From contig JAJDOE010000044.1 in NCBI GenBank assembly GCA_022340345.1, forward strand, positions 1 through 32,408: a stretch of 32,408 bases of DNA, given 5' to 3'. Of this stretch, positions 3,580 to 8,068 are shown in pieces. Origin of the DNA: Gammaproteobacteria bacterium. GTDB lineage: Bacteria; Pseudomonadota; Gammaproteobacteria; HyVt-429. The notes under the pieces are model-generated. The model was given only the letters and a program-made list of their open reading frames with translations. It was not told where the DNA came from and did not search any database. The position numbers and the translations under genes were made by a program. Position 1 is the stretch's first letter. The number at the start of each line of letters is the position of its first letter.

Positions 3580-4458
3580 GTGAACGGCCCGATGCACCTC
3601 TCCCTAAAACAGTCCCAGATCCGGCAGCTCCTGCTGGGAACGCTGCTGCTCAGCGGCCTGGGGCTGGCCTTTGCCTGGTCCACCGGGTGGAATCCCCGGG
3701 TCCTGGCGGCGGCTGGCGCTACCGTCGGCCTGTGGCTGGTTCACGGCCTGTGGCAGCGCCGGAGGCTGGCACAGGCCCTGAAACGAGATCTGCGCCAACT
3801 CAAGCGCCTGGTCCGGGACATTCGCCGCGACCTGGAGCCTGGCCCGGTGAACCTGCGGTTGGCGGAATTTACCCCCTTGCTGCAATCCCTGACCCGCTCA
3901 GTGAATCGCATTGCCCGCGAGCGCCGCAAATTGCGCGACCTGGGGCTGCGCGACCACCTGTCCCGGCTACCCAACCGTCGCGCCCTGGAGGACCGGCTCG
4001 CGTCCAGCCTGAGCCAGGCCCGCCGGGGCCTGCCCGGTGCCCTGCTGCTGATCGACATTGACCGTTTCAAGGAGGTCAACGACCGCTATGGTCACGAAGC
4101 GGGCGACCGACTGATCCGCGCCTTTGCCCGGGCGCTGCGCCAGTGCGTGCGCGAGACCGATTTCGTCGCCCGCCTCGGGGGTGACGAATTTGCGATCCTG
4201 TTCAGCTTTACCGCTACCGGACAGGCGCAGGCCCTCGCCCAGCGCCTGCGCCTGGCGATGCCCAAGCGCCTGCAGATCGGGCCGGACATCCATCACCGCC
4301 TGCGTTGGACCGGCGGACTGACCGAACTCACCGCAAAAACCGACGCAGGCTCGGCGCTGCGGGAAGCGGACGCCGCGCTGCTGCAGGCCAAGCAGGCCGG
4401 GCGTAACTGCACCCACGTGGCGGAGGAACCGGTTCCGCGTGCCGTGGCGCGCGCCTGA
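3580..4458 (+). CDS. Membrane-anchored diguanylate cyclase (GGDEF protein)
   Basis: Of 292 residues, the first 60 hold two likely transmembrane helices (about 16-33 and 41-58). A basic, probably coiled segment (60-85) and a linker lead to a C-terminal GGDEF domain (about 120-280). The active-site motif is intact, LGGDEF at 199-204, and DIDRFKEVND (159-168) supplies the metal/substrate region. RETD at 191-194 lies five residues before GGDEF, matching the RxxD inhibitory site for product feedback. It should therefore make cyclic di-GMP from two GTP. No known sensor domain is visible; any periplasmic loop is only a few residues. GTG at 3580 is taken as start, with ATG at 3592 as the alternative. 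It sits between dut and algC, where many relatives have no gene. Confidence 0.9.
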   Translation: MNGPMHLSLKQSQIRQLLLGTLLLSGLGLAFAWSTGWNPRVLAAAGATVGLWLVHGLWQRRRLAQALKRDLRQLKRLVRDIRRDLEPGPVNLRLAEFTPLLQSLTRSVNRIARERRKLRDLGLRDHLSRLPNRRALEDRLASSLSQARRGLPGALLLIDIDRFKEVNDRYGHEAGDRLIRAFARALRQCVRETDFVARLGGDEFAILFSFTATGQAQALAQRLRLAMPKRLQIGPDIHHRLRWTGGLTELTAKTDAGSALREADAALLQAKQAGRNCTHVAEEPVPRAVARA

Positions 4459-4576
4459 GGCCGGCCCCGGCAAAGCCACGCCGCGCCGGCCGGATTTCCC
4501 GGCTCCCTCGTCACGCCGGAAAAAAACCGCCGGGTTCGGGAAAGATGCCTGGTCGCGAACGCTCCGCGGGACAGGC

Positions 4577-6010
4577 ATGGCCTATACTACGACGCCCGTA
4601 GCGACCAACCCGGACCCCAGTGTGAAATCCCCCTCCGAACTACCACCGCCGGAGATCTTCAAGGCCTACGATATCCGCGGCATCGTTGATCGTAGCCTGA
4701 CCATTGCCGGCGCCGAGCTCATCGGGCGCGCCGTTGGCAGCGAGGCCCGCGACCGCGGAGTCAGCGAAATCGTCACCGCCCGCGATGGGCGCCTTTCCGG
4801 CCCGGCACTGCAGGCGGCGCTGAACAGCGGCCTGGTGGCCAGTGGTTGCCGGGTGGTGGACATCGGCATGGCGCCTACCCCGGTTCTGTATTTCGCCGCC
4901 TACCAGATGCAAAAGCCGTCCGGGGTGATGGTTACCGGCTCGCACAATCCACCGGACTACAACGGATTCAAGATGATGCTGGCCGGTGAGACCCTGGCGG
5001 GAGAGACCATCACCGCACTGCGGGAACGCATGGCGGCCGGGCGCCTGCAGGAGGGAACCGGCAGCCTTGAGACCCGTAACGTGCTCGGCGACTACCTGGA
5101 GCGGGTGCGTTCCGATATCCACCTCGCTCGCCCCCTGAAAGTGGTGGTGGACTGCGGCAACGGGGTTGCCGGGATGCTCGCCGGGGAACTGCTGCGCGCC
5201 ATCGGCGCCGAAGTGCAGGAGATGTTCTGCGATGTGGACGGCAATTTTCCCAATCACCACCCGGACCCCAGCCAGGCGGCCAATCTGGAGGACCTGCGTG
5301 CCGCGCTGGCGGCGGGCAACCACGACCTGGGTCTGGCCTTCGACGGAGACGGCGACCGGCTGGGGGTCATGGCGCCGGACGGCACCATTATCTGGCCGGA
5401 CCGGCAACTGATCCTGTTTGCCCGTGACGTGCTGAGCCGCAATCCGGGGGCCGAGATTCTCTACGACGTAAAATGTTCCCGCACCGTGCCCGAGGCGGTG
5501 GAGGCGGCCGGCGGCCGCGCCACCATGTGCAAGACCGGTCATTCCTTCATCAAGGCCAAACTCCAGGAGACCGGGGCGGCGCTGGCCGGAGAGATGAGCG
5601 GGCACATCTTTTTTAGCGAACGCTGGTACGGTTTCGATGATGGTCTGTATGCCGCGGCACGGCTGCTGGAACTGCTGGCCAGCGATTCCCGCACCCCGCA
5701 GCAGGTCTTCGCCTCCCTGCCGGACACGGTCAATACGCCGGAACTGCAGATCCGCATGACGGAGGGCGAGAACCACGCCTTGATCCCGGAGCTGGTGGCG
5801 CGGGCGGATTTCCCCGGGGCACGCACCAGCACCCTGGACGGCCTGCGGGTGGATTTCGCGGACGGCTTCGGTCTCATTCGCGCCTCCAACACCACTCCCG
5901 TCCTGGTGCTGCGTTTCGAGGGCAGCGACGCCGCCGCCCTGGCACGCATTCAGGACAAATTCCGGCGGCTGATCCTGGATACCCGCCCCGGACTGGAGCT
6001 ACCGTTTTGA
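4577..6010 (+). CDS. algC: Phosphomannomutase / phosphoglucomutase
   Basis: The product interconverts hexose 6- and 1-phosphates (mannose, glucose), supplying nucleotide sugars for LPS, exopolysaccharide and other glycans. From ATG 4577 it has 477 residues; from GTG 4622 it would have 462, closer to Pseudomonas AlgC, and the early conserved segment EIFKAYDIRG fits either. The phosphoserine loop TGSHNPPDYNGFK (S122 from ATG) is intact, as are the metal loop DGDGDR, the sugar-specificity loop GEMSGHIFF and the C-terminal phosphate-binding RASNTTPVLVLRFE. It lies downstream of dut as in Pseudomonas relatives, though argB does not follow. Link to the surface-glycan genes at 19-24 kb is metabolic inference only. 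Confidence 0.95.
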   Translation: MAYTTTPVATNPDPSVKSPSELPPPEIFKAYDIRGIVDRSLTIAGAELIGRAVGSEARDRGVSEIVTARDGRLSGPALQAALNSGLVASGCRVVDIGMAPTPVLYFAAYQMQKPSGVMVTGSHNPPDYNGFKMMLAGETLAGETITALRERMAAGRLQEGTGSLETRNVLGDYLERVRSDIHLARPLKVVVDCGNGVAGMLAGELLRAIGAEVQEMFCDVDGNFPNHHPDPSQAANLEDLRAALAAGNHDLGLAFDGDGDRLGVMAPDGTIIWPDRQLILFARDVLSRNPGAEILYDVKCSRTVPEAVEAAGGRATMCKTGHSFIKAKLQETGAALAGEMSGHIFFSERWYGFDDGLYAAARLLELLASDSRTPQQVFASLPDTVNTPELQIRMTEGENHALIPELVARADFPGARTSTLDGLRVDFADGFGLIRASNTTPVLVLRFEGSDAAALARIQDKFRRLILDTRPGLELPF

Positions 6011-6011
6011 A

Positions 6012-7736
6012 ATGACCGGCGCGCGATTATCCGGCCGACTGGGCGCGCTCAAGGACAACCTGCTGGCACTGGACGGCCTGCCGCGACAGGCGTTGCTGGG
6101 CTTCGCCTGCGGACTGCTGGCCGGCGGGGTCATCATTGCATTCCGCCTGCTGGTGGAACTGCTGCAGGTCTGGGGCCTGGGCGCCACCACCGCCGACAAC
6201 TTCAAGCACCTCAGTCCGCTGCAGCGCTTCCTGCTGCCGACCCTGGGAGGCCTTGGGCTGGGCCTGGCAATGAGCCGGCTGCCCGCCGCCACCCGCCAGG
6301 TGGGGGTGGTGCATGTAATGGAACGGCTTGCCTACCACCAGGGCATGCTGCCGCTGCGCAATGCGCTGGTGCAGTTCCTGGGCGCCGCCGCGGCACTGGT
6401 GACCGGCCAGTCCGTGGGCCGCGAAGGTCCCAGCATCCACCTCGGCGCCGCCGGCGCCAGCGCCATCGGCCAGTTCCGCGAGGTGCCCAACAACACCCAG
6501 CGGGTGCTCGTGGCCTGCGGCGTAGCCGCCGCCATCGCGGCCGGTTTCAACACGCCGCTGGCCGGGGTGATCTTCGCCATGGAAGTGGTAATGCTGGAGT
6601 ACACCCTGAGCGGTTTCGCCCCGGTGATCCTGGCGGCCGTCAGCGCCACCGCCCTGAGCCGGGTGGTGTTCGGCGCAGCCCCCGCATTTGCACTGCCGGC
6701 CCTTTCCATGGCCTCGGTGCTGGAACTTCCGTTGGTGCTGGCCGCCGGGCTTGCGCTGGGAGCGCTGGCGGCGCTGTTCATCCGCCTCTCTCACTTTGCA
6801 ACCCGCGGCGGGGCCTTGATTCCCCTGTGGTTGCGACTCACGGCGGCCGGCGCGGTCACCGGGCTGGTGGCCGGGCCGGTGCCGGAGGTCATGGGCGTGG
6901 GCTACAACGCGGTGCAGGACATGCTCGCCAACCAGGGCGGCTGGCTGCTGCTCGCGGCGCTGCTCGCCGGCAAGCTGCTGTGTACCGGGGTGGCGGTGGG
7001 TTTCGGAATTCCCGGCGGGCTGATCGCCCCGACCCTGGTGATTGGCGCCGCCGCCGGTGGCCTTGCCGGCTATGCCGCCAACGTGTTCCTGCCCGGCGAA
7101 GTAGCGCCACAGGCCTTTTATGTACTGATCGGCATGGGCGCCATGATGGCGGCGACCCTGCAGGCGCCGTTGGCGGCGCTCACCGCGCTGCTGGAACTGA
7201 CGGCCAACCCCAACATCATCCTGCCCGGAATGCTGGCCGTTATCGGCGCCGGCCTGGTGAGCAGCGAAGTGTTTCGACAGAGCTCGATCTACGTTTCCCT
7301 GCTGCGCGATCGCGGGCTGGAATACGGTGCCGATGCGGTCGGGCTTCCCCTGCGGCGGATTCATGTAGCCCGGGCCATGCGCACGGACGTGGTGGAGTCC
7401 AGCGGAATCCTGGCGGTAACACGGGCGCGGGAATTGCTGGAGGCTGAGCCTGCCTGGATCGTGATTCGCGACGAATCCGGACCCCGCACCCTGCTGGCAG
7501 CCGCCGACCTGTCCCGCGCCCTGGAGGCGGAGGACCTCGGGCCGGAGCTGGATCTCAACGAACTGCCGGGACACCGGCTGCAACTGGTTTCAATCCCCTT
7601 CCGTTCCTCGCTCTATGACGCCGCGCACGAACTGGAACGGGAGGAAGCGGAGGCCCTGGCTATCGTGCGGGGCGGAGCGCTGGCGGGGATACTCGAACCG
7701 GAGCAGTTGCAGCGGTTCTACCGCGTGCGAGGCTAG
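6012..7736 (+). CDS. ClC-family chloride channel/transporter with C-terminal CBS-like region
   Basis: This 574-residue inner-membrane protein starts one base after the algC stop, so coupling is likely. The hydrophobic ClC core spans about residues 25-430. The gating-glutamate motif GREGPSIHL is at 136-144 (E138) and the pore motif GFGIPGGLIAPTL is present later. The last 130 residues form a soluble region with two divergent CBS-like repeats, usually regulatory nucleotide-binding modules. Two key positions differ from E. coli ClcA by my hand alignment. The chloride-coordinating serine of GSGIP is replaced (QVGVV, V97), and the internal proton-path glutamate E203 is V192 in FAMEVVML. That suggests channel-like or altered transport. 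It resembles a ClC branch I recall in other Gammaproteobacteria. Its stop overlaps that of the convergent gene. Confidence 0.93.
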   Translation: MTGARLSGRLGALKDNLLALDGLPRQALLGFACGLLAGGVIIAFRLLVELLQVWGLGATTADNFKHLSPLQRFLLPTLGGLGLGLAMSRLPAATRQVGVVHVMERLAYHQGMLPLRNALVQFLGAAAALVTGQSVGREGPSIHLGAAGASAIGQFREVPNNTQRVLVACGVAAAIAAGFNTPLAGVIFAMEVVMLEYTLSGFAPVILAAVSATALSRVVFGAAPAFALPALSMASVLELPLVLAAGLALGALAALFIRLSHFATRGGALIPLWLRLTAAGAVTGLVAGPVPEVMGVGYNAVQDMLANQGGWLLLAALLAGKLLCTGVAVGFGIPGGLIAPTLVIGAAAGGLAGYAANVFLPGEVAPQAFYVLIGMGAMMAATLQAPLAALTALLELTANPNIILPGMLAVIGAGLVSSEVFRQSSIYVSLLRDRGLEYGADAVGLPLRRIHVARAMRTDVVESSGILAVTRARELLEAEPAWIVIRDESGPRTLLAAADLSRALEAEDLGPELDLNELPGHRLQLVSIPFRSSLYDAAHELEREEAEALAIVRGGALAGILEPEQLQRFYRVRG

Positions 7737-8068
7737 CGGGCGGAACCATCCCCCACCAGCCGCGCTTCCGGCAGGCAGGTCATGATGGCCGATGCCAGTT
7801 CCACGATCACCCCGGGACGGGCACGTACCGACACCCACAGCAGATTGAGGGGAAGGTTGAGATCGGCGAACACCACCTCCCGGCAATTGCACAACACCGC
7901 GTTGAGCAACGCCAGCTTGTTGCCGACGCCGGATTCCGGCAAGTCGCGCAGCCCCGGTAGCAGCATCATGAAATCGCTCAGGGGCGATCCGTTTTCATCA
8001 TGGGTAGGCGCGCGCTCGTGTAGCGGTGTCGCCGCGTGCACCCCGGAATGCAGACGAATCCGGCTCAT
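7733..8068 (-). CDS. Small hypothetical protein, unrecognised
   Basis: A 111-residue minus-strand frame from ATG at 8066-8068 to TAG at 7733-7735. I do not recognise the family. The N-terminus is polar (HSGVHAATPLHERAPTHDENG). The rest alternates hydrophobic stretches (FMMLLPGLRDL, ALLNAVLCNCREVVFADLNLPLNLLWVSV) with a conserved-looking GVIVELASAIMTCLPEARLVG end, like a small globular alpha/beta protein with two close Cys (CNC). No signal peptide or clear membrane helix is seen. It fills the gap between the ClC gene, with which it shares a CTAG stop overlap, and the divergent PhzF-like gene 65 bases from its start. A real gene is likely because nothing else occupies this interval and its composition is protein-like. 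Confidence 0.65.
   Translation of the reverse strand: MSRIRLHSGVHAATPLHERAPTHDENGSPLSDFMMLLPGLRDLPESGVGNKLALLNAVLCNCREVVFADLNLPLNLLWVSVRARPGVIVELASAIMTCLPEARLVGDGSAR

Follow-up and report, generated by a model that had tools for sequence, protein, structure and literature searches.

The CLC gene and its neighbourhood

The window (the whole stretch of 32,408 nucleotides that was analysed) carries a CLC-family anion transporter gene whose start codon lies one base past the stop of an upstream phosphomannomutase/phosphoglucomutase-like gene (Table 1). The encoded protein matched the Voltage_CLC family (PF00654; E = 2.5e-79, 267.4 bits against a cut-off of 24.8) and was the single match to this family in the source genome, which is 94% complete and consists of 183 contigs. 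The top NCBIfam model was the ClcB-like PRK01862 with 252.6 bits, below its cut-off of 482, and the score against the ClcA model PRK05277 (162.8) was likewise below the cut-off of 350. A preliminary description of this gene had suggested a structural alignment with ClcA, and in such an alignment the folds agree: an AlphaFold2 model computed from 48 family sequences (mean pLDDT 88.3) has the CLC fold and superimposed on CLC-ec1 (1ots_B) with a Z score of 50.3 and an rmsd of 2.5 over 407 residues. When the sequence was scored with HMMER against solved chains, a bacterial ClcA-type chain reached 115.2 bits compared to at most 48.1 bits for the animal CLC-1 and CLC-2 chains, and the fluoride transporter CLC-F (6d0j) was close in fold (Z 46.8) with a sequence score of just 35.2 bits. 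The nearest solved structures, as judged by sequence, are of the bacterial ClcA type, which speaks of kinship and not of function.

No conserved functional neighbour was found among the tested genes of the window, of which only the GGDEF gene was matched in the 80 loci of relatives, by GGDEF-domain proteins of 29-33% identity at 8 of them. The other tested genes (CoaBC, Dut, PhzF, rhodanese and AceE) were, like the GGDEF gene, ordinary. Also present in the window are two further pyruvate dehydrogenase-type genes, genes for FG-GAP and TPR proteins, and methyltransferase, sulfotransferase, glycosyltransferase and subunit A and B type topoisomerase genes. Of 274 sampled gammaproteobacterial genomes 84 had a match to the CLC protein at E <= 1e-50, a count that includes the genome of the window itself. 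Homologues of erpA or partial hemL, the neighbours of clcA in E. coli, were present in the fetched flanks of 34 of the 80 loci (24 of 43 among those of at least 13 kb), suggesting that the window family often occupies the chromosomal place of clcA. Examples of loci near such homologues are L007, L022, L027, L044 and L058; ClcA itself belongs to another CLC group. The window copy sits elsewhere, after the mutase gene, and a mutase was also found upstream in two of three family relatives (L115-L117), the locus of the third beginning near a contig end. The 111-codon reading frame that faces the CLC gene has counterparts of 58-60% identity adjoining the CLC gene in all three of these relatives.

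Table 1. Features of the CLC locus, with the occupancy of mechanistic sites among 79 close relatives. Residue numbers are those of the window protein; equivalents are given in ClcA numbering.
Feature	Position	Strand	Basis or occupancy
Phosphomannomutase/phosphoglucomutase-like gene and CLC gene	4439-7736		
CLC-family anion transporter gene, 574 aa, ATG start	6012..7736	+	ORF, Pfam
V97, place of Ser107 (Ser_cen)	6300..6302	+	V 46/79, rest L, M, T, I, C or A
M103, place of E113	6318..6320	+	M 58/79, E 0/79
Q121, place of buried Lys131	6372..6374	+	Q 79/79; ungapped to Glu_ex
E138, gating glutamate (Glu_ex, E148)	6423..6425	+	E 79/79
E191, equivalent of E202	6582..6584	+	E 79/79; 110/110 in the phylum sample
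V192, place of internal glutamate E203 (Glu_in)	6585..6587	+	V 79/79
E196, four positions after V192 and beyond helix H, candidate carboxylate in place of Glu_in	6597..6599	+	E 78, D 1 of 79
I338, place of Phe357 (Phe_cen)	7023..7025	+	I 77, V 2 of 79
Y427, equivalent of Tyr445	7290..7292	+	F 67, Y 12 of 79; larger alignment
C-terminal tail, residues 440-574, CBS pair by predicted fold	7329..7733	+	AlphaFold2 and fold comparison
111-codon reading frame facing the CLC gene	7733-8068	-	no Pfam match at E <= 0.001

Residues at the mechanistic sites and the C-terminal tail

Reference residues were taken from E. coli ClcA and ClcB (NC_000913) and aligned with MAFFT, in a three-sequence and in a larger alignment. 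The close relatives comprised the 80 loci found with the window protein, 79 of them distinct; from the alignment rows three duplicates and one weak match were dropped (L004, L120, L121 and L127 have no kept row), and window copies and E. coli regions were set aside. The window protein aligned to ClcA without gaps from F190 to just beyond E203, around F357, and over the 17 residues that separate the Lys131 site from the gating glutamate. The motif QVGVV overlay GSGIP with no internal gap in both alignments, and the register at E203 was confirmed by HMMER against solved ClcA chains. These alignments bear out three readings of the preliminary description, namely that the gating glutamate is kept (E138, aligned to E148), that the internal glutamate E203 is replaced by V192, and that the Ser107 region reads QVGVV, with V97 at the place of the serine.

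The two marks of the CLC superfamily, the gating glutamate in GREGP and the equivalent of E202, are both present as E138 and E191. R147 corresponds to R137, and the sites of R147 and F190 (Phe_ex) were invariant in all 79 relatives. The invariance of V192, E138 and E191 among these relatives indicates more than chance. ClcA shares with the window CLC the fold, Glu_ex, R147, F190, E202 and Tyr445, whereas its S107, E113, K131, E203 and F357 are all replaced; it has no CBS tail, and the identity is 28.7% over 397 residues. In ClcA, E113 is the hydrogen-bond partner of Glu_in, as stated in an excerpt of PMC7253180. E. coli ClcB (b1592; 30.8% identity over 412 residues) also has a valine at the Glu_in site and no GSGIP motif and keeps Glu_ex, E202 and Tyr445. 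It differs from the window CLC in keeping Lys131 and Phe357, and its 418 residues leave no room for a CBS tail.

Two replacements that the preliminary description did not mention, of Lys131 and of Phe_cen, make the set of missing residues sharper, more testable and more interesting. Lys131 is called universally conserved in a 2026 paper (PMC12873427, in the part available); against this, the window CLC has a glutamine at the site, and if the alignment is right the printed claim stands corrected. The site was occupied by K in 56 sequences of the phylum sample described below (n = 110) and otherwise by E (15), Q (12), V (11), S (8), R (2), I (2), H (2), A (1) and L (1); since half of these clear CLCs do without the lysine, it was not taken to define a CLC. 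Residues were also read in 24 newly fetched loci, the strongest matches of a class-wide search, and all 24 carried Q, V and I at the sites of Lys131, E203 and F357 together with E148 and E202. At their Ser107 site V was found in 16, T in 4, L in 2, F in 1 and Ser in 1.

The preliminary description had also noted a CBS-like tail, which the predicted fold upholds as a CBS pair. The window protein itself had no Pfam CBS match, and Pfam CBS domains were present in 21 of 48 scanned family members (E <= 0.1). Folded alone from 45 tails, the tail reached a pLDDT of 88.4, and in VIA (Foldseek was also run) this model matched the CBS pairs of ClC-3, ClC-5 and ClC-7 with Z scores of 11.8-12.5 and an rmsd of about 4.0-4.5. 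The 50 VIA matches listed had Z scores of 11.3-13.3 and included many named CBS domains and CLC tails. The agreement of the model with these pairs points to a CBS pair by fold. The second repeat of the window protein departs from the 45 family tails at three conserved positions, with E562 where 34 have T, P563 where 37 have R and Q567 where 38 have E. These departures make control by nucleotides a less safe prediction than the fold, although such control of the window protein by its modelled tail is possible.

Occurrence in Pseudomonadota

A non-random sample of 110 CLCs from Pseudomonadota was assembled from the 30 best-scoring matches and 80 sequences hand-picked across families from the list of matches in 150 genomes. 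At the E203 site this sample had V in 66, E in 25, L in 14, I in 3, T in 1 and A in 1, and at the Glu_ex site E in 104, Y in 5 and Q in 1. All 25 members with Glu_in also carried Ser107, Lys131 and Phe357. A tree was built from 123 of 202 sequences, including 20 of the 79 close relatives and 90 of the 110 sampled CLCs, by a short search without mixture model and with SH-aLRT as the only support. On this tree the Glu_in state changed at least twice, and the window CLC fell within a clade of 40 rows (SH-aLRT 100) that had V at the E203 site throughout. ClcB lay outside this clade; its own placement, like that of L187, is unsure because both raised a long-branch warning.

The preliminary description had taken the protein for an odd bacterial member and had proposed to place it on a tree. 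Neither the residue counts nor the tree agree with oddity, as V is the commonest state at the E203 site in the sample, is fixed in the close relatives and across the 40-row clade, and occurs in ClcB. An isolated or chance oddity was therefore rejected: Glu_in is missing from all 79 relatives and from 85 of the 110 sampled CLCs. The two peculiarities first noted thus reduce for the most part to a single one, that the protein is a member of the second large group of bacterial CLCs in the sample. The window CLC belongs to a large proteobacterial group, the sampled members of which are without the internal glutamate, and within it to a mostly gammaproteobacterial family that is also without Ser_cen, Lys131 and Phe_cen.

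Five of the 110 sampled CLCs (L158, L177, L180, L182 and L199) have a tyrosine in place of the gating glutamate (GRYGP or GQYGP), and these also carry a histidine before the E202 equivalent. L187 has the motifs GGNNLV, GREGT and GGEVTP, which we take to be marks of fluoride-type CLCs.

Proposed transport mechanism

The window CLC is probably a Glu_ex-dependent, proton-coupled anion transporter, perhaps slow or loosely coupled, with a CBS tail; its transport, coupling and anion we infer from other CLCs. Chloride, or a similar anion, would be moved by a Glu_ex-dependent cycle coupled to protons, and the protons would come in by way of E191, the invariant counterpart of E202, along water wires and not via a Glu_in carboxylate. 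Turnover would probably be slower, or coupling looser, than in ClcA. The invariance of Glu_ex, R147, E202 and F190 in all 79 relatives points to selection on the proton-linked gate and on the E202 portal. Phillips et al. reportedly found in 2012 that Citrobacter koseri CLC-ck2 is an antiporter despite a nonpolar residue at Glu_in and a changed selectivity signature. CLC-ck2 is also cited, for proton pumping without a titratable Glu_in, in an excerpt of PMC7253180, together with several homologues that likewise lack a titratable Glu_in and pump H+. According to the same excerpt, CLC-ec1 still pumps H+ when it carries E203A or a double mutation; coupling is degraded in these mutants, somewhat so in E203A, and is worst in E203Q, at about 75 Cl- per H+. 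That some homologues with a residue at the E203 site that cannot dissociate are antiporters is mentioned in passages of PMC3519907, where E202, which guides protons in, is described as arguably the most strictly conserved CLC residue; an E202 equivalent is also present in animal CLC channels, which have V at the E203 site. In E. coli, acid survival of the clcA clcB double deletion was lower than that of the single deletions, indicating a role for a V-type CLC, coupling aside (PMC10394335, in part). A search of open-licence literature, which also covered bacterial CLCs in which Glu_in or Lys131 is missing, found no measured activity of any clade member and no survey of the window clade.

The loss of Lys131 and Phe_cen bears on rate and coupling. 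Replacement of K131 by A or M slowed CLC-ec1 about 20-fold while the coupling stayed at about 3:1, according to an excerpt of PMC12873427. Phe_cen and Phe_ex are highly conserved across the family, alanine at either impairs exchange, and in exchangers with alanine at Phe_cen both rate and stoichiometry were impaired (PMC7274781, in the passages available). The window family keeps Phe_ex in 79 of 79 relatives and is without Phe_cen. We know of no tested precedent for the joint loss of Phe_cen and Lys131, and coupling could thus be fully lost.

A bolder form of the proton-coupled reading, which we put forward tentatively, is that the window family is a naturally reduced CLC in which anion/proton exchange runs with Glu_ex as the sole titratable residue of the core, and does so without Glu_in, Lys131, Phe_cen and Ser_cen. 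If so, these four residues, among them the one described as universally conserved, would tune the coupling and not carry it out, and another cytosolic polar cluster (H101, E104, R105, H109 and E196) may feed protons in. Ideas on how CLCs couple 2 Cl- to 1 H+ still draw for the most part on mutants of a single E. coli protein, and a widespread family in which four supposedly mechanistic residues are replaced jointly, with Glu_ex and E202 fixed, offers a natural and direct test of what coupling needs.

A less probable reading, which overlaps with the other explanations, is that the changes mainly retune the choice of anion through V at Ser_cen and Q at Lys131, with nitrate, for example, preferred. 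A main role of Ser_cen in anion choice is the consensus described in passages of PMC9726985, and weak Cl- binding of Lys131 mutants is reported in part of PMC12873427. Against this, bCLC-k and hCLC-1, with proline at Ser_cen, had nearly unchanged selectivity; backbone amides matter, and Ser_cen does not play the same part in all CLCs (PMC9726985, same passages). No anion-specific gene was seen among the 14 largest neighbour clusters, which were named by eye. An altered anion selectivity of the window CLC, as suggested in the preliminary description, is possible.

A passive, Glu_ex-gated anion channel, as proposed in the preliminary description, is unlikely. The animal CLC-1/2/K channels share with the window CLC the valine at the Glu_in site (V292 of CLC-1, as given in an excerpt of PMC6019066) and the CBS pair, and the changes at Ser_cen and Lys131 also fit a channel. 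CLCs without the internal glutamate have been treated as channels from alignment only (PMC6909576), and the CLC-0/1/2 channels and the transporters seem indistinguishable by sequence (PMC6019066, excerpt). A passive channel does not, however, follow from the loss of Glu_in, as E203A and the homologues with a neutral Glu_in pump H+ (PMC7253180 and PMC3519907, in the parts cited above). The valine, moreover, is the commonest state among the sampled Pseudomonadota and is found in ClcB, and the kinship of the window CLC is with the bacterial chains. Proton pumping with a neutral Glu_in and the conserved E202 portal led us to prefer coupled transport over a channel.

The least likely of the alternatives, which overlaps with proton-coupled transport, is that the proton carboxylate has been displaced, so that E196 would act as the cytosolic proton acceptor; four helix D residues, H101, E104, R105 and H109, may assist it. 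In favour of a possible REPLACEMENTS, the E196 site was acidic in all 79 relatives and, within the phylum sample, in 56 of 85 CLCs without Glu_in, compared to 2 of 25 with it. In helix D of the window family H101 was conserved in 77%, E104 was acidic in 89%, R105 was kept in 95% and H109 was histidine in 90%. These four residues are rare or absent in the classical group: E104 and H109 had no counterpart in the 25 CLCs with Glu_in, and R105 had none in the 56 with Lys131. E104 and H109 are common to 53% and 33%, respectively, of the other CLCs without Glu_in. The association of an acidic E196 site with the loss of Glu_in was, however, inherited and not repeated, there being 2 independent pairs on the tree with the same direction in 0.0 on average. 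An acid at E196 was absent from 32 of 98 tree rows without Glu_in, including ClcB, L126, L183, L184 and L189. In the AlphaFold2 model E196 lies beyond the end of helix H (182-194), and it falls near ClcA R209 or Q207; the E117-R209 pair caps the polar pathway, and mutations there affect H+ transport little (PMC3519907, in the passages available). E196 as a repeated replacement of Glu_in was thus rejected, the strong raw association reflecting shared descent in tree-corrected contrasts.

A cation was also looked for in place of Lys131. The Ser107 column held R or K in 28 of the 54 phylum-sample CLCs without Lys131 compared to 0 of the 56 that have it, which looks like a shift of the cation from one site to the other; after correction for the tree 4 pairs were left, agreeing in 1.3 on average, which is too few for significance. 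For the window family a cation moved to the Ser107 column was rejected, as the site there holds V97 and no cation. The only new conserved cations of this family were R72, R105 and, in the tail, R449, by the criterion of a cation in 85% or more of the close relatives and in no more than 15% of the CLCs with Lys131. In the phylum sample (n = 110) all 15 CLCs with Glu at the Lys131 site carried Arg or Lys at the Ser107 site, so that the charge pair around the central anion site is swapped; these CLCs are at L131-L133, L136, L140, L141, L145, L146, L156, L159, L202, L203 and L205-L207.
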